64,000 bases of DNA. Source: Ktedonobacterales bacterium. GTDB taxonomy: Bacteria > Chloroflexota > Ktedonobacteria > Ktedonobacterales > Ktedonobacteraceae. The number at the start of each line of letters is the position of its first letter. Positions within the stretch are counted from its first letter, which is position 1. The DNA is taken from contig DAIDJF010000002.1 in assembly GCA_027451525.1 (NCBI GenBank), forward strand, positions 1 to 64,000, in the 5' to 3' direction. The position numbers were made by a program, and so were the translations under genes. This document shows, piece by piece, positions 6,867-37,523 of this stretch. Below the pieces are notes generated by a model. That model had not been told where the DNA came from, searched no databases, and saw nothing but the letters and a program-made list of their open reading frames with translations.

Positions 6867-6995
6867 CTACACCACCAGATGAATTTTTTCAGCACGATTA
6901 TCACACCCTGCTCTCCAACCGATGTTGGTGCCCGTCTGTTCAGAAAACGTATCGCATGACGTTTGGCAGCGTATCATACTCAAGAACAGGCACAC

Positions 6996-8123
6996 TCACG
7001 CGGCATTATGCATACCCAGGCTACGGCGAATTTCGATATAATGCACGATACCGTCACGGGTAAGCACGCCAACAAGCTGACCATTTTGTACAACAGGGAG
7101 CTCGTTTGCTCTCTGCGCAATCATCAGTTTCAATGCATCACCAATCGGCTGTTGCGGTTGAGCGACTTTCATCTGCTCCACAGGTGTCATTACAAAGCCA
7201 ACAAGCGTCTGCCCCCACTCTTCACGAGCAACCTGACGTACCTCACCTAGTGTGATAACGCCCGCAAAACGCTCGCCCTGCATCACAAACGCAGAGCGTA
7301 ATGCATGTGGGAGGAAGTAGCCATCCACAAGCCGCTGGAGCGAAATGTTCGCTGGCACAGTCTCTACATGTGTCTCCATTACCTGACTAACTACTACGCC
7401 ACGAAATGCAGTATCAAAGGCCACCTGCGCGTTCGACGATTGCGCGGCACTGAACAAGAACCAGCCCGTAAAGCCAATCCAGATCCCACTGAAGGTATTG
7501 CCCGCAAAAAAGAGCAACACTCCACAGACAATCAACAGGTAGGCAATTACCTCGCCAACGATAGTCGCAATCCGTGTGGCACGCCGGAAGTTGCCCGTGA
7601 TTTTCCAGATGATTGAGCGCAAAACACGCCCTCCATCCAGCGGGAAGCCCGGTATCAGGTTAAAAATGCCCAGTAACAGGTTTGACGCCGCCAGATAGGT
7701 AAACACAGCACCAAGCGGGGAACGCCCACCGATAAAGTAGAGAATAAGTAACGAGAGACCTCCAATCAGCAGGCTCACCAATGGGCCGACAAACGCCATT
7801 TGGAACTCTATCCCTGGACGCTCCGGCTCCTGTTCAATATTTGATACACCGCCAAAGATGAACAGAATAATACTTTTAACAGGCAATCCGCGTGAACGCG
7901 CTACCAGCGAATGTGCCAATTCGTGCAGTAATACTGAAGCAAACAGCAGCAAGGATGCCAGCATGCCCAGGAAGAGATATGCGCCTGTCGCATAGCCCGG
8001 CACAAGGGAGGGAAACCAGCCAATCGCCAATGAGATTGTCAGAAACACGACTACAATAAACCAACTGAAATTGATGTAAATGTCAATTCCTGCAATATTA
8101 CCAATACGAAATGAGCCACCCAT
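6996..8123 (-). CDS. Site-2-type intramembrane metalloprotease (M50) with CBS domains
   Basis: This is a polytopic M50 protease of the Rip3/SpoIVFB-like group, which cleaves membrane-embedded substrates. Several hydrophobic helices surround the zinc motif HELAH (in LLHELAHSLVARS) and the second active-site motif PLDGG within NLIPGFPLDGG. The C-terminal third contains a tandem CBS pair, which usually senses adenosine nucleotides. The longest frame begins at 8171, but GAGGAGA lies just before the ATG at 8123, giving MGGSFRIG as the N-terminus and 375 residues. No partner substrate is encoded nearby. Confidence 0.92.
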   Translation of the reverse strand: MGGSFRIGNIAGIDIYINFSWFIVVVFLTISLAIGWFPSLVPGYATGAYLFLGMLASLLLFASVLLHELAHSLVARSRGLPVKSIILFIFGGVSNIEQEPERPGIEFQMAFVGPLVSLLIGGLSLLILYFIGGRSPLGAVFTYLAASNLLLGIFNLIPGFPLDGGRVLRSIIWKITGNFRRATRIATIVGEVIAYLLIVCGVLLFFAGNTFSGIWIGFTGWFLFSAAQSSNAQVAFDTAFRGVVVSQVMETHVETVPANISLQRLVDGYFLPHALRSAFVMQGERFAGVITLGEVRQVAREEWGQTLVGFVMTPVEQMKVAQPQQPIGDALKLMIAQRANELPVVQNGQLVGVLTRDGIVHYIEIRRSLGMHNAA

Positions 8124-31223: not shown

Positions 31224-31520
31224 CTACCCTTCGATATCGGCCTTTATCTCCATTTTAAGATCTGGAGCGAGAGAGTCCAATTCCTGGCTGGACATATGAG
31301 CTAAGCGCATAACAGTAATACGCAGATGCTCTGGTGCGCGTGCAAAACGGCAATGTTCATGTATTAAACGTTTTACACTGGTGTCTACATGAAAGCGACA
31401 CTCACAATGCGGACAGTTGGCAAGATGCTGTTGCACGATAGTAATTTCTTCGGTATTAAGTTCCCGATCAAGATACAAATGAAGACGAGCAACAGCCTCA
31501 ATACAATCTATACACTCCAT
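31224..31520 (-). CDS. Zinc anti-sigma factor, RsrA-like
   Basis: The 98-residue protein is of the ZAS/zf-HC2 type. Cys3 and Cys6 are near the N-terminus, and HLANCPHC gives the HxxxCxxC zinc motif. The segment SVKRLIHEHCRF resembles RsrA, the redox-sensitive anti-sigma that releases SigR when its thiols oxidise. AGGAG precedes the ATG. The divergent ECF sigma gene lies 480 bp away and is the likely partner. A candidate SigR-type promoter stands in front of this gene, which would give negative feedback. Confidence 0.85.
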   Translation of the reverse strand: MECIDCIEAVARLHLYLDRELNTEEITIVQQHLANCPHCECRFHVDTSVKRLIHEHCRFARAPEHLRITVMRLAHMSSQELDSLAPDLKMEIKADIEG

Positions 31521-31999
31521 AGAAAATTTCTCCTGCGTTCATACAAGCTCGTCACGTTACCTGTTCATTCTAACATAATCATAGGGGTATTTCATTCCCA
31601 AAGCTATTTCTAGTACCAGCAGCTTACCCTAAAAGGCGGATTTTGCACTCTTGTATATGGGACGTACCTCTAAAATTGCAAAAGAGCGCGAGCCTATCTT
31701 CTTTTGGCTCGCTGGGGCGTGTTCATAGCAGTATGCATATGGCAAACCTGACTTTTGTTGCGTCACATGATATACTACATTTTGTGACAGGGGAATTCCC
31801 ACACTAGTTGTGGCACACGAGGTGCGAATAAAATGGAGAAATCGCTCTAGAGAAGCGGCTCACTGATGGCAATGGAAGCTCAAGCAACACATGCTATCAT
31901 CCACTTTCCATGAGAAATGTTTCCTATGCAACCCCACCTCTTAGAGTAGAAGCACACTGTTATTGTCACAGCCTTGTTAGAGGAGAGAAATATATTTTC
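31521..31999. other. Divergent control region between anti-sigma and sigma genes
   Basis: This 479-bp region serves both genes. It holds the candidate SigR-type promoter toward the anti-sigma gene and a GGGAATTCCC palindrome at 31791-31800 on the sigma side. The sigma frame is open from 31910 but the ribosome binding site supports the later start. No other gene is seen. Confidence 0.5.
31572..31598 (-). promoter_or_regulatory. Candidate SigR-type promoter for the anti-sigma gene
   Basis: Read on the minus strand, GGAAT (31598-31594) is followed by 19 bases and then GTT (31574-31572). This matches the known SigR/SigH consensus of GGAAT, 18-19 bases, GTT. It ends about 50 bases before the anti-sigma ATG. 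Confidence 0.55.
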
Positions 32000-32665
32000 A
32001 TGTCGGAACAGCCAAAGTTTGAAGAAACACAATCATCAAACGTGACGTTTGATGAGATGGAAGCACAAGACGCATCTAAGGCGACAGCAAAGACATCCAT
32101 TCCAGCAGAGGACTTTGAAGCAGGAGTGCTGGCACAAATTGATAGTTTATATCGTACTGCCTTACGCATGACAAACAATCCCCAAGAAGCTGAAGACCTG
32201 GTTCAGGAGACGATGTTAAAGGCATTCCGCTTCTCAAATACCTATCAGCGCGGCACAAATTTACGCGCCTGGCTCTTTCGTATATTGAACACTTCGGCAA
32301 TCAACCGTTATCGTAAACAGGCGACCCATCCAAACACAACCTCACTGCCAGAAGGGGAGGATTTTTATCTCTATAACCGCATCCGTGACCTCAACGGTCA
32401 GGAATTGAATTTAGGAGCAGAGGAAGAGGTTGTCAGCAAATACCTGGATGAGGATGTCTACAAGGCACTCAACGATTTACCACCCAATTTCCGTATGGCG
32501 ATTATTTTAGCTGATATAGAAGGATTATCATATAAAGAGATTGCCGAAGCTCTACAAATCCCTATCGGGACGGTGATGAGTCGTATCTCACGCGCCCGTC
32601 GTCAGCTTCAGCAATCACTCTGGCAATATGCAAAGGATAAAGGCTATGTGCGAGAGGCTTCATAA
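32000..32665 (+). CDS. ECF sigma factor, SigR-like
   Basis: An extracytoplasmic-function-type sigma factor with region 2 (NPQEAEDLVQETMLKAFRF, then NLRAWLFRILNT) and region 4 (LPPNFRMAIILADIEGLSYK, then IPIGTVMSRISRARRQL). The wording of region 4 and the tail (YAKDKGY) is close to the thiol-stress sigma SigR, and an RsrA-like anti-sigma is encoded divergently. The frame is open from 31910; ATG 32000 is preferred because AGGAGAG lies 12 bases upstream, giving 221 residues with an acidic N-terminal extension. Confidence 0.9.
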   Translation: MSEQPKFEETQSSNVTFDEMEAQDASKATAKTSIPAEDFEAGVLAQIDSLYRTALRMTNNPQEAEDLVQETMLKAFRFSNTYQRGTNLRAWLFRILNTSAINRYRKQATHPNTTSLPEGEDFYLYNRIRDLNGQELNLGAEEEVVSKYLDEDVYKALNDLPPNFRMAIILADIEGLSYKEIAEALQIPIGTVMSRISRARRQLQQSLWQYAKDKGYVREAS

Positions 32666-32821: not shown

Positions 32822-33091
32822 TTACGAGGAACGTGTTGTCCGTTGGCGTATAATCTCAACGCCAGCACGGGTAATACGAACGTTTACACAGCGTCGATCC
32901 ATGAGATCAATCGAACGAGTTGCTAACCCTTTCTTCTCTAAGCGTGCAATTGCTTTTGTCGCCGCTGCTGAACTTACCCCCAGGGCGGTTGCCAATGCAC
33001 CAACAGACCATTGTTCTCGTCGTGTAATCAACGTAAGTACCTCGACTTGACGCGGCGTTACACCAACATATTCTCTATCCGTAGTAGTCAT
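32822..33091 (-). CDS. Short MarR-like winged-helix regulator
   Basis: At 89 residues this is barely more than the MarR winged helix: VTPRQVEVLTLITRREQW, recognition helix VSSAAATKAIARLEKKG and wing DRRCVNVRITRAG. The usual flanking dimerisation helices are missing or very short, so dimerisation may differ. It starts 110 bases after the end of the sensor histidine kinase gene on the same strand, so it could belong to that operon and act as its output, but that is speculative. Confidence 0.8.
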   Translation of the reverse strand: MTTTDREYVGVTPRQVEVLTLITRREQWSVGALATALGVSSAAATKAIARLEKKGLATRSIDLMDRRCVNVRITRAGVEIIRQRTTRSS

Positions 33092-33201: not shown

Positions 33202-36102
33202 TTATGACAAACGAGGCACAATTTGAGAATTAGCACCGCGTTGCACACGCGGCTCGATATGTTCGGTTAACGGCAGTGAGAACATAAAGCTACTGCCTTC
33301 ACCATCATGGCCAGCACTCTCCACCCAGATCTGCCCTCCCATCGCTTCGATCAAGCGTTTACAGATATAGAGGCCAAGACCAGCACCGCGCACGGGGCTA
33401 TTCATATCGCGTTCTAGGCGGACAAATCGTTCAAACAAGTGTACCTGGTCTTCAGGTGGCACACCAGAACCATAATCGCGAATAGTCACGATGGCAAAAC
33501 CTTCACGTTTCCGCGCGTGAATTTCAATTTTTGTACCAAACGGCGAATATTTCAATGCATTATTAAAAATATTCAAAATCACCTGCCGCAGACGCAGGTT
33601 ATCAGCCCACACAACAATATCTAAGGGAACATCTACCGTAACCTGGCGATGCTCATTCGCAATCAACGCCCCTAACATCTCCACGACGTGAGCAACTGCT
33701 TCGACCAACGGAACGTGCTGCAAACGAACCTTCTCCGCATCAATATGCACGCGGCTCGCGTCCATGATGTTTTCCATCATCAGAGCTAATTCATCGCAGC
33801 CACGATGAGCCTTACGAATAAAGCTAGCACGCGCGTCTTCAGATAACTCACTGCCATATTGTTCCAAAAGTTCAACATACCCCAGCACAGCCGTTAGGGG
33901 CGTGCGCAACTCGTGCGAGGTCGTTATAATAAACTGGTCTTTTAATGCATCCAACTCTTTTTGGCGTTCATACGCCGCACGGAGTTCTAACGTGATCCTG
34001 GTATTTTCTAGAGCAACTGCGCACTGGCTAGTAAACATCTCTAACACCCGAATCTCCTCTTTTGTAAAAACATGTGGGTGTTGATAGATCAGAGTGAAGA
34101 TACCAACATTTTTGTTGCCCAGCCGTAGCGGTAACCAGGCAACAGGCAAGGCTGGGACCTCGTGCAGACACGAAGGCAGGGTACTTCCCAGCCTCTCCCA
34201 ACCTGATGAAATTGCGCCGTTATGAAATATTACGTGCCAATCATGCGCTACCAGCGACAACTCCGCCTGTGGAAATAGTTGTATGCCTGCGCCAGAGGCT
34301 GCTACACGGCGAACGTTCTGCGCGTTCGGCTCACACAGCCAAACTTCAGCTACGACTGGGAGCGCATGAGACGCAACAGACGTGTAGGCCTCCGCCAAAT
34401 CTTCAACCGTGGCAAACGCTTCTTGTGGCAATATGCTCACACTGTAGAGATTGTTCAGCAACGTCGCATGTTCTCTCGCCTTCTGAGCCAGACGCGCCGT
34501 CTCTAGCAAAGGCGAGAAACGCGCAAGCAAGAGCATGATGGCATCCAGGTCAGGACCAGCGTAACGCTGATAATCGCCACGCTCACCTAGAAAGAGCAGG
34601 CCAATCATTTTTCCCTGTACGCGAATCGGCGTGACCACAATTTTTTCTTGCGCACTATCTTCATGCATGTGTTCGTTGACAGTCAGGCCAAAACGCCCCA
34701 TCAGGGATGAAGAGTGTAATTCACGTAAAAATACCGGGCGCGTAACGCTATGAAGTTGCTTGACCAACGCGAGATTCTCATGCAACCAATAGCTCTCTTT
34801 ACAGGCGGTATTAGCATGAAATACACGCACGAGCGTGTCTAGCATGGGGATACGCTTCTCTTCGCCACGCTCAGATTGAAGAGTAGGTAGCATATGATAA
34901 TAACCATCATGCTCATCCAGAACAAAGAAGCAAACATTGGCCGTTTCAAACATATGCATAGCCGATGTGATCAGCAAACGGACAACCTCATCCAGATCGA
35001 GAACTGTTTCTAACAGAAATGCGGGCATTTCTATCAGACGACGATAGTACAACGTCTCTCTATAAAAGACCCGTTCCGTAAGGAGGCGAGCAAACCACCA
35101 GACTAACGGAGCGAACAGTGCGGTCATACCCACGATCAGCAGAGCAAGCAACGAGGGCAACTGCCCCGCAAAGGCCTCAGTGATAATAACGACAACGTAG
35201 ACCAGCAACAATAACCCAACGCAACCAATAATCCAGGCAACAGCACGACGAATATAGGCATCATAGATCAGCAGTTGATAGCGCAAAATAGAGTAGCCGA
35301 GGGCAAGAGGAAACAAAATAAACGTCAGTGTGCTAAACTGCGCATTAATAGTCATGGTCTCAGAGCCAAAGATACGGGGAAGGATAGTCAAGAGAAAGAA
35401 GGGAGCAATAGCGACAATAACCCCAAGCAAAAAGAGACGTATCTGTTGCTTCTCTCGATAAGAGACTGCCAGGTAATAGGAGAGGCTGACAGTAGTGATG
35501 ATGCCAACAAGCCCTATAAATTCATAGATATAGGAAATGACAAAAAACCAATTGGGCGGTATGGGGGTTAAGACAGCGAAAAAGACATTGCAGATAAGTA
35601 GAACGCCGCCATAGAGAGCCAAAACCAGCAAATAGAACGGGGCAAAGCTATGTACCATGCGCTGGACCACCATGCGAAAATGGCTTGTTTGCCCGTTCTC
35701 CACGACAAAATAGTTGCGCGGAAAGAGGAGCAGTAGCGCGAGTAGCAGTGGGATTGCGATAACTGTGCCACAAGCTGTAGCAGAAACCAACAATCGATGT
35801 TTCTCGACAGCCCCTGTCTCACCGCCAAAGACGACGCTCATTGCCAGACAGAAGCCAAACAAAACAGACGCGATGGACCGCTCATGTCCATAGAGCCAAA
35901 CCAGGATACCGACCGCTAAAAACATCAATGATGTAAAGACAGAGAGGCCAAATTGGAACCAGATCGAGAGTAACTGCGACGAGGCGAGATGATAGAAGGT
36001 AACATATCCACATACCCCAATAAACGCGCCAAAGAAAAGAAGTGCCAATATTGCGATACCCGCCCGCCATAGCCATAAATTTGTCCCTAATATATGCTTC
36101 AT
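33202..36102 (-). CDS. Large polytopic sensor histidine kinase, ComP-like position
   Basis: The ~966-residue protein has an N-terminal membrane block of roughly ten helices (about 10-340) with little extracellular sequence. Two GAF-like regions follow, then HisKA with SHELRTPL (phospho-acceptor His730) and a HATPase domain with N box (ILNIFNNALKYSP), DYGSGVP and GLGLYICKRL. It should be an active kinase. Start 36102 (MKHILGTNLW) is preferred over 36135 because the latter sits directly on an AAGGA. It lies 43 bases after the ComQ-like gene, with the peptide gene before that, like ComP in comQXP loci, although true ComP uses a HisKA_3 domain. No response regulator is adjacent. Confidence 0.9.
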   Translation of the reverse strand: MKHILGTNLWLWRAGIAILALLFFGAFIGVCGYVTFYHLASSQLLSIWFQFGLSVFTSLMFLAVGILVWLYGHERSIASVLFGFCLAMSVVFGGETGAVEKHRLLVSATACGTVIAIPLLLALLLLFPRNYFVVENGQTSHFRMVVQRMVHSFAPFYLLVLALYGGVLLICNVFFAVLTPIPPNWFFVISYIYEFIGLVGIITTVSLSYYLAVSYREKQQIRLFLLGVIVAIAPFFLLTILPRIFGSETMTINAQFSTLTFILFPLALGYSILRYQLLIYDAYIRRAVAWIIGCVGLLLLVYVVVIITEAFAGQLPSLLALLIVGMTALFAPLVWWFARLLTERVFYRETLYYRRLIEMPAFLLETVLDLDEVVRLLITSAMHMFETANVCFFVLDEHDGYYHMLPTLQSERGEEKRIPMLDTLVRVFHANTACKESYWLHENLALVKQLHSVTRPVFLRELHSSSLMGRFGLTVNEHMHEDSAQEKIVVTPIRVQGKMIGLLFLGERGDYQRYAGPDLDAIMLLLARFSPLLETARLAQKAREHATLLNNLYSVSILPQEAFATVEDLAEAYTSVASHALPVVAEVWLCEPNAQNVRRVAASGAGIQLFPQAELSLVAHDWHVIFHNGAISSGWERLGSTLPSCLHEVPALPVAWLPLRLGNKNVGIFTLIYQHPHVFTKEEIRVLEMFTSQCAVALENTRITLELRAAYERQKELDALKDQFIITTSHELRTPLTAVLGYVELLEQYGSELSEDARASFIRKAHRGCDELALMMENIMDASRVHIDAEKVRLQHVPLVEAVAHVVEMLGALIANEHRQVTVDVPLDIVVWADNLRLRQVILNIFNNALKYSPFGTKIEIHARKREGFAIVTIRDYGSGVPPEDQVHLFERFVRLERDMNSPVRGAGLGLYICKRLIEAMGGQIWVESAGHDGEGSSFMFSLPLTEHIEPRVQRGANSQIVPRLS

Positions 36103-36145
36103 AATACATCTCACGCGGCAATTGCCACATCTCATTCCTTGAATA

Positions 36146-37216
36146 TTATGTAGAACCGAACAAGAGACGTAAAGCAGAAGAGATCGGAGAATGTTCCTCT
36201 ATCTGATACAGGTAGTCACCTGCTCTTTCGCGGTATAAGAGACAGAGTCCCCAGGTCGTAATGATCCCTTCATGTAAAAGATCTCTAGATCTCGCTTCTT
36301 CCTGATCGGAGTGCAGTGAAATATTCTGAAGCATAGCATCACTGGTCGCTGCAATCACAACTGGTAATGTTTTTTTACTACGCGACAGGTCGGTTTTTAC
36401 CAATTCCACACGTATGTTACGATCTATTCCGACGAAATCTGGTTGAGTAAGAGATACGCCTTTTACCAGCAGATGATACAGGTCATGACTGTCATTGTCA
36501 AGTTGATGAGCTATACCGAGGAGAGAACCAAGTTCAGAGAATAGGCTATAGGTTCTTTCGTCCGCTTGCCCACATAATGCGCCAAGACAGCAGGCCATCT
36601 GCATAAGAGCACCCGCTTTCCAGGCAGCAATCTCTAGACATTCTTCCTGTGTCATAGTATGGGCAGCACGCTGTTCGTCTAACAAATCTCGATGCTGTCC
36701 AGCAGTTGCGAGCAACAATGACTCATGCATACGCGCGAGCAAACGGAGCACGAGACGCGGCTCCATCCCCTCGTCTGCCAATACCAGCAGCGTGCGCTGG
36801 GCCAGGGAAAGTAAGGTCGTTGCTACATTTAACACACGCGCCGTCCCTAGTGCGTGTACAATGGAGGTCTGATCTCCGTCTTCAACGTCATCAAGGAGAT
36901 CGAGCGCACAGATGACACACTCGACCGCCACACCTACCGCACAACCATACTCCAAATTGAGCGCAGGGTTGACATGGAGAGCAATCAGTAGCGGTAATAA
37001 CGACCATACGCCATTGGGCAAATTATGCAGGGAGGATGCATGTTCCTTCTGTTCAGAAAATCCAGGGGAGAGCAATTTCCCCGGTTCCTGGAGAGCACGT
37101 TTTACATCAAGAGCGAGGGCAGGATGCAGCATGTCTATAAGACATTGAAGCCGCTTACGCAGCAACGGCTGGTAAGCGGCAAATACATCCCGCGCCTCTT
37201 GTATATTTTCACGCAT
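36146..37216 (-). CDS. ComQ-like isoprenyl transferase of the polyprenyl synthase fold
   Basis: The 356-residue all-helical protein has the trans-isoprenyl synthase landmarks. The first Asp-rich motif is DDVED (109-113) in ALDLLDDVEDGD, then GQHRDL (173-178) and a Lys (about 200) in AAWKAGALMQMA. The second Asp-rich region is NDSHD (241-245), weaker than the usual DDxxD, followed by SKKTLP. From memory, Bacillus ComQ shows a closely similar first motif and a degenerate second one, and it attaches an isoprenyl group to Trp of ComX. The gene lies between a Trp-tailed peptide gene and a sensor kinase gene. ATG 37216 is chosen over TTG 37243. A normal isoprenoid synthase is the alternative. Confidence 0.75.
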   Translation of the reverse strand: MRENIQEARDVFAAYQPLLRKRLQCLIDMLHPALALDVKRALQEPGKLLSPGFSEQKEHASSLHNLPNGVWSLLPLLIALHVNPALNLEYGCAVGVAVECVICALDLLDDVEDGDQTSIVHALGTARVLNVATTLLSLAQRTLLVLADEGMEPRLVLRLLARMHESLLLATAGQHRDLLDEQRAAHTMTQEECLEIAAWKAGALMQMACCLGALCGQADERTYSLFSELGSLLGIAHQLDNDSHDLYHLLVKGVSLTQPDFVGIDRNIRVELVKTDLSRSKKTLPVVIAATSDAMLQNISLHSDQEEARSRDLLHEGIITTWGLCLLYRERAGDYLYQIEEHSPISSALRLLFGST

Positions 37217-37313
37217 AGCATTCTCGCATTCATGAAATAACAAAGCGGTTGTATTTAAGGGTGTTCAACGGCAAGATTGAGTTTACAAGCACATTGCTTG
37301 GACTCAAGCGCGA

Positions 37314-37523
37314 TCACCAGTTGTAGTACCACCAGAATGATGGTCCTTGCTTCTCCTCATTCTCAAGCGTCAAATGAGGAACAAGACGGGTAATAACGCG
37401 CGTAACACGTGGGGAAAACCCTTCGCTGGCAATTACTGCATCAGGATGGGCCGCTAATTCACTGCGGAGGGCCGCATCTTGGGAGACGCGGTGGACAAAA
37501 TTGCGGATCTGCTGTACTTCCAT
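37314..37523 (-). CDS. Candidate isoprenylated peptide pheromone precursor, ComX-like
   Basis: The 69-residue peptide begins MEVQQIRNFVHRVSQD, has an amphipathic leader-like N-terminal region, then an acidic linker ENEEKQG and an aromatic C-terminus PSFWWYYNW. ComX precursors have a leader of similar type and a Trp close to the C-terminus that ComQ prenylates before cleavage and export. AAAGGTG lies 9 bases before ATG 37523; the longer frame to 37604 has no such site. It is the first gene of the three-gene run, 97 bases before the ComQ-like gene. Nif11-type RiPP leaders are an alternative reading. Confidence 0.65.
   Translation of the reverse strand: MEVQQIRNFVHRVSQDAALRSELAAHPDAVIASEGFSPRVTRVITRLVPHLTLENEEKQGPSFWWYYNW

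Follow-up and report, generated by a model that had tools for sequence, protein, structure and literature searches.

Does signalling by a prenylated-tryptophan peptide of the ComQXP type, which published reports place only in Bacillus and its relatives, also exist in the Chloroflexota? The question is raised by three adjacent genes, here named X (precursor peptide), Q (enzyme), and P (kinase), in a 64-kb stretch of DNA from a Ktedonobacterales bacterium (the window). To our knowledge, no peptide pheromone is known in Ktedonobacteria or other Chloroflexota. A published census placed no comQXPA-like loci outside Firmicutes (PMC4008528), and a later survey showed the kinase/regulator pair alone in Chloroflexi (PMC8895600). 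Our own literature search, the scope of which did not include subscription papers (among them recent reviews and the ChrPC paper), found neither X nor Q described from Chloroflexota, and no account of ComQX wired to c-di-GMP.

The X-Q-P cassette and its chromosomal setting

The cassette occupies 33202-37523 of the window and consists of three minus-strand genes, transcribed in the order X, Q, P and followed by a small regulator gene:

37314..37523, minus strand: X, precursor peptide of 69 aa with an ATG start (MEVQQIRNFVHRVSQDAALRSELAAHPDAVIASEGFSPRVTRVITRLVPHLTLENEEKQGPSFWWYYNW); supported by its ORF, purifying selection, and homologues adjoining Q in relatives
36146..37243, minus strand: Q, putative ComQ-like prenyltransferase of the isoprenoid-synthase fold; supported by Pfam PF00348 and an AF2 model
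33202..36135, minus strand: P, sensor histidine kinase; supported by Pfam HATPase_c, HisKA, and GAF
32822..33091, minus strand: MarR-type winged-helix protein of 89 aa (MarR Pfam 2e-14), 111 nt downstream of P

The longest ORF of Q has 365 aa from a TTG at 37243, with an internal ATG at 37216 as the likelier start; that of P has 977 aa from an ATG at 36135, with a probable start at the ATG at 36102. With the two internal starts, the X-Q and Q-P gaps are 97 and 43 nt, exactly as the first-pass annotation had given them. Its description of three co-directional genes in the order peptide, enzyme, kinase is correct because ORFs and starts, Pfam matches, and ten AlphaFold2 helices agree: the 69-residue peptide does have a Trp-rich end (SFWWYYNW), the polyprenyl-synthase fold proposed for Q is matched by Pfam polyprenyl_synt (PF00348) at 4e-15, the kinase carries HATPase_c (1e-27), HisKA (7e-11), and GAF, the combination assigned to it, and the roughly ten-helix sensor is modeled as ten long helices in residues 1-378 of P.

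The X-Q-P arrangement is not due to chance, as the genes recur together in many related genomes. The synteny in other Ktedonobacteria that was proposed as a check is found, with order and strand kept in Ktedonosporobacter, Thermogemmatispora, and brp13, among others. The cassette lies in a conserved block that reads CcdA, zf-HC2, sigma factor, MarR, P, Q, X, queuosine salvage, murE, and a mraY-like gene, with the first three flanking it on one side and the last three on the other, and the same chromosomal block is present in at least nine related genomes of several genera. Because the cassette sits in a conserved multi-genus chromosomal block, recent transfer of a Bacillus ComQ and assembly contamination are both disfavoured. 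On the CcdA side, positions 31224-31520 and 31910-32665 of the window hold an ECF-type sigma factor and a divergently read zf-HC2-like small protein, which flank the cassette and are conserved in several genera.

The MarR-type gene likewise stands beside P in at least seven other loci (L034, L035, L038, L041, L042, L044, and L045), and also in three loci (L100, L101, and L102) that have lost X and Q from an otherwise intact block, with P and the MarR gene retained. Its product is possibly an output or feedback regulator, for which it is the best local candidate. P remains under purifying selection in these three loci, and their genomes have another Q-type gene elsewhere (L046, L047, and L048). 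The receptors left without X and Q may be signal-blind, or they may be eavesdropping receivers.

The enzyme Q and the peptide X

Two short motifs of Q bear on its function:

36878..36892, minus strand: first Asp-rich motif (FARM) DDVED, D118-D122, inside LDLLDDVEDGD
36482..36505, minus strand: pseudo-SARM Q247-L-D-N250-D251-S-H-D254 (QLDNDSHD), with ND replacing DD

ComQ needs the FARM and the N/G-D of the pseudo-SARM; mutagenesis showed that NDxxx/GDxxx is required for Trp isoprenylation, and activity drops drastically when the N is replaced by D (PMC5331326). The ComQ-like motifs ascribed to Q in the first-pass annotation are present, and Q does not carry the HDDxxD and QxxDD motifs of ordinary trans-isoprenyl diphosphate synthases. 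The ND form of the second motif is found in 31/31 Chloroflexota Q loci, counting those with a readable motif and with X and/or a ComP-type receptor adjoining, and in none of 21 ordinary synthases, all of which have DD. The residue preceding the FARM in Chloroflexota Q enzymes is not His, unlike the ordinary HDD. We did not use the conserved Gln in front of the SARM as a marker, since ordinary synthases carry it too.

A tree of 45 proteins, including 12 Firmicutes ComQ and 20 Chloroflexota enzymes, separates the ordinary synthases with support of 100/99 and unites the 12 ComQ proteins at 100/100. The Chloroflexota enzymes lie between these groups, 18 of the 20 together at 93/91 and two (L079 and L108) unplaced. 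Within this tree Q was not found in the ComQ clade, and it falls outside the ordinary synthases as well; the clustering with FPP/GGPP synthases that would have refuted the first-pass reading was looked for and did not appear. Judged by motifs and phylogeny, Q is a ComQ-like enzyme of its own clade and not a Bacillus ComQ, recent transfer of which the tree does not support; whether Q and ComQ share a common prenyltransferase ancestor remains unresolved.

Fold comparison is less informative. The AF2 model of Q (pLDDT 85.6) matches isoprenoid-synthase folds in the PDB, including the Trp prenyltransferase Ord1; the best PDB matches are GGPP synthases, and the model resembles ordinary synthases as much as it does Ord1. 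Predicted fold similarity hence does not decide the function of Q, as prenyltransferases cannot be separated from synthases in this way. Together with the Pfam polyprenyl_synt match, these GGPP synthase hits are what could be said for an ordinary-synthase reading of Q, in which an isoprenyl diphosphate synthase has come to lie by accident between a kinase gene and a small ORF with no relation to it. We give this explanation almost no credence: both catalytic sites are changed in all members, which form a separate clade, the genome encodes two further synthases, both canonical, and X is kept across diverged genomes. Motifs and tree largely rule it out.

Several Q-related genes elsewhere should be recorded. 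The Q frame is broken, by pseudogenization or sequencing error, in Ktedonosporobacter rubrisoli (L036, 7050-8115) and in L048 (6181-7083). Locus L046 encodes, at 6968-8002, a ComQ-like enzyme with an ND pseudo-SARM and has no recognisable X and no adjoining receptor. A polyprenyl synthetase family gene on a plasmid of the cyanobacterium Acaryochloris (L058, 5833-6780) matched the ComQ probe; its second motif is DD, and it is left unclassified.

The peptide X can be divided as follows:

37374..37523, minus strand: leader, residues 1-50, NHLP-clan-like; NCBIfam NF038399 matches mainly among homologues
37317..37373, minus strand: variable tail, residues 51-69, whose Trp column does not vary in alignments A3 and A4
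37329-37334, minus strand: Trp64 and Trp65, candidate prenylation sites in the Trp column of the alignments
37317-37319, minus strand: Trp69, the C-terminal residue and a candidate prenylation site

Compared with its same-genus homologue, X has a dN of 0.089 and a dS of 1.32, and 29 of the 42 base differences fall at third codon positions; Thermogemmatispora-type pairs show a similar pattern dominated by third-position changes. By this codon evidence X is a real gene under purifying selection. Independent of the tail, we built a profile from residues 1-51 alone of four X peptides (start codons in other genomes were inferred from alignment, and some are GTG) and iterated it over every stop-to-stop frame in 26 Q loci and in 18 ordinary-synthase loci that served as controls, at a cut-off of E 1e-3 or better. 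All 15 ORFs retrieved lie in Q loci and none in the 18 controls, so X is kept beside Q in relatives; its absence there was the other outcome that would have counted against the first-pass reading. Every one of the 15 has a Trp within its last six residues, although tails played no part in the selection; the chance of this is about 9% per peptide at 1.5-1.6% Trp, or 3e-9 for eight independent cases. The leader-only search with its control loci and the codon-level selection rule out X as a chance small ORF.

The leader matches NF038399 (Os1348 family NHLP clan) in 10 of 11 scanned Chloroflexota X peptides at E<=1, with a best value of 3.5e-8. For the window X itself the value is merely 0.029, and that against the Nif11 leader is 0.0018, below the curated cut-off; both are weak. 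No match of X to Pfam ComX (PF05952) was found. X does fit the ComQXPA pattern of a short precursor with Trp near the C terminus and a variable tail.

Which Trp would be modified is undecided among the three. W64/W65 form the column common to other X peptides, most Chloroflexota relatives have their Trp two to three positions from the end, and ComQ tolerates Trp at these positions in vitro (PMC5331326); W69 would suit the C-terminal rule of PalQ. Q might also modify X otherwise than by ComX-type prenylation of indole C3, at another position, with another chain, or through Trp-directed cyclisation. The separate clade of Q leaves room for this, as does PalQ, which shows that position and regiochemistry vary within this enzyme group (PMC13290415). 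We nevertheless regard it as very improbable, given that the characterised trans-IDS-like peptide prenyltransferases all target Trp (PMC13290415) and that Q has the FARM/ND combination of ComQ.

The putative receptor P and its relatives

P comprises an N-terminal sensor and a C-terminal transmitter:

35029..36102, minus strand: ten-helix membrane sensor domain, homologous to the ComP membrane domain, without the PDZ-like loop
33265..33942, minus strand: HisKA + HATPase_c transmitter, from Pfam

Aligned with 12 ComP N-termini by hhalign, the P sensor scores 97.7% (E 2e-12 over 328 columns), and two unrelated membrane proteins used as controls score 0.2%. On this profile evidence, the membrane domain of P is homologous to that of Firmicutes ComP. 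The alignment begins after the PDZ-like loop of ComP, which is missing in the window P and present in relatives such as L111, L114, and L124. The transmitter of the window P is of the HisKA class and not of the HisKA_3 class. Among all kinases of its own genome, P has no sensor paralogue at E<=1e-20, because it matched solely their kinase cores. A search with a ComA-type receiver HMM found no response regulator near P or elsewhere in the window.

Across 61 related genomes the P-type sensor domain is mostly single-copy and mostly adjoins Q. Because a few carriers have no Q nearby, the sensor domain alone is no proof of peptide sensing. One protein (L107, 1935-4385) joins PDZ, a ComP-like membrane domain, and GAF to a phosphatase of the SpoIIE type, and no Q was found in its neighbourhood; the ComP-like sensor domain also occurs away from Q loci.

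Annotated loci were found with a first ComQ probe, an approximate sequence used solely for that purpose. A scan of named genomes located Chloroflexota loci in Ktedonosporobacter rubrisoli, Ktedonobacteria brp13, Thermogemmatispora, Dictyobacter arantiisoli, and a Dehalococcoidia MAG (SURF_40), and further loci in Bacillus, Paenibacillus, Domibacillus, Sporosarcina, and Halobacillus, most with the ComQXPA layout; a draw of 400 genomes of the phylum added more Chloroflexota loci. Chloroflexota receptors adjoining X and/or Q carry the following outputs:

HisKA: the window, Ktedonobacteria, L079, L114
HisKA_3 with an adjacent LuxR-type regulator: L111, L113
As L111 and L113, with HisKA_3 not called: L120
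HisKA hybrid kinase with receiver: L121, L122, L124
HD-GYP: L108 5200-8751; L110 1-3150
HD-GYP + GGDEF: L109 2370-6900, with intact HD, HHExxDGxGYP, and GGDEF motifs
GGDEF + EAL: L123 5447-9643, cut by the contig end

As a set, the c-di-GMP-type receptors match ComP membrane domains at 99.7%. L108, L109, L110, and L123 each directly adjoin a ComQ-like gene, and three of the four also a Trp-tailed peptide; in L110 no X is visible because the locus begins inside Q. It seems somewhat more probable than not that prenyl-Trp signalling is old and phylum-wide in Chloroflexota, with one ComP-type sensor serving many outputs, and that the peptide of some lineages has direct control over the synthesis or degradation of c-di-GMP instead of a phosphorelay.

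Proposed signalling and comparison with known systems

Taken together, we consider it likely that the locus is a ComQXP-type prenyl-tryptophan peptide signalling system, in a variant outside Firmicutes, with prenylation, processing, export, sensing, and output all inferred. This reading rests on gene content, motifs, homologies, and conservation, without chemistry, expression, or secretion data, and roles in quorum sensing and development are likewise inference. The ComQXP likeness proposed in the first-pass annotation holds for the Trp tail, the ND pseudo-SARM, and the ComP-homologous sensor; it does not extend to the clade of Q, which is its own, or to X, which lacks the Pfam ComX match.

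In such a system, Q would bind the helical NHLP-like leader of the ribosomal precursor X, hold geranyl, farnesyl, or geranylgeranyl diphosphate at its trans-isoprenyl-diphosphate-synthase-like DDVED motif, and, at the ND pseudo-SARM site, prenylate with it a Trp close to the C terminus of X. The tail would then be cleaved and released through a route that is not identified; we saw no dedicated exporter and no dedicated protease. The ten-helix ComP-type domain of P would sense the tail and signal, via HisKA phosphotransfer, to a regulator whose gene lies elsewhere, perhaps with the neighbouring MarR-type protein also involved.

Alternatively, X could be a prenylated RiPP that serves some purpose other than communication, for instance as an antimicrobial or metallophore, and P merely its self-regulating sensor as in lantibiotic clusters. 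The leader of X does resemble the NHLP RiPP clan, weakly in the window X and consistently among its homologues, and PalX has been described simply as a RiPP with its role untested (PMC10853753). This alternative is nonetheless unlikely, though it cannot be dismissed: the conserved unit contains no transporter, immunity, or further tailoring genes, the sensor of P has its homologue in ComP, a pheromone receptor, and the three genomes that keep P without in-place X and Q fit a receptor for an external signal better.

If the signalling reading is true, a prenylated-Trp peptide language would exist in the multicellular, sporulating Ktedonobacteria and in other Chloroflexota. What is new here is a prenyl-peptide-type cassette outside Firmicutes, together with its phylum-wide spread and exchange of outputs. 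The Chloroflexota Q enzymes would form a ready list, with varied Trp positions, for peptide lipidation; the exchanged receptor outputs would offer a test of how a single sensor can control kinases as well as c-di-GMP enzymes; and genomes with the receptor and lost signal genes would be natural cases of possible eavesdropping.

Among known proteins and systems, the free-Trp/indole farnesyltransferase Ord1 (PDB 9v4g) shares the isoprenoid-synthase fold and is among the best sequence and fold matches of Q, but according to the literature it acts on free tryptophan, with no peptide partner. Plasmid pBM700 of Priestia megaterium (L057) has the X-Q-P order and the ND pseudo-SARM, in a locus of a small ORF, an isoprenoid enzyme, an ATP-binding kinase, and a response regulator; it differs in being plasmid-borne, in Firmicutes, and with the response regulator adjacent. 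ComQXPA of Bacillus subtilis and relatives shares the Trp-tailed precursor, the enzyme with FARM and ND/GD pseudo-SARM, and a kinase with a homologous membrane sensor. Its order, however, is Q-X-P; the window X has no ComX-family leader, Q forms a separate clade, and P lacks the PDZ-like loop and has HisKA + GAF in place of HisKA_3. No ComA-like gene is adjacent in the window, whereas a LuxR-type neighbour is present in the Chloroflexota loci L111 and L113.

Among characterised systems, PalX/PalQ/PalP of Paenibacillus alvei (PMC10853753), not mentioned in the first-pass annotation, comes closest in design. That system belongs to Firmicutes and has another gene order, and PalQ accepts only a C-terminal Trp, unlike the position seen in most Chloroflexota X peptides. 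It too consists of three genes, encoding a precursor with a Trp end and an NHLP-type leader (a type to which the window X itself shows only a weak match), a Trp prenyltransferase of the isoprenoid-synthase fold, and a histidine kinase (PMC10853753), and the window X, like PalX, ends in a C-terminal Trp (W69).
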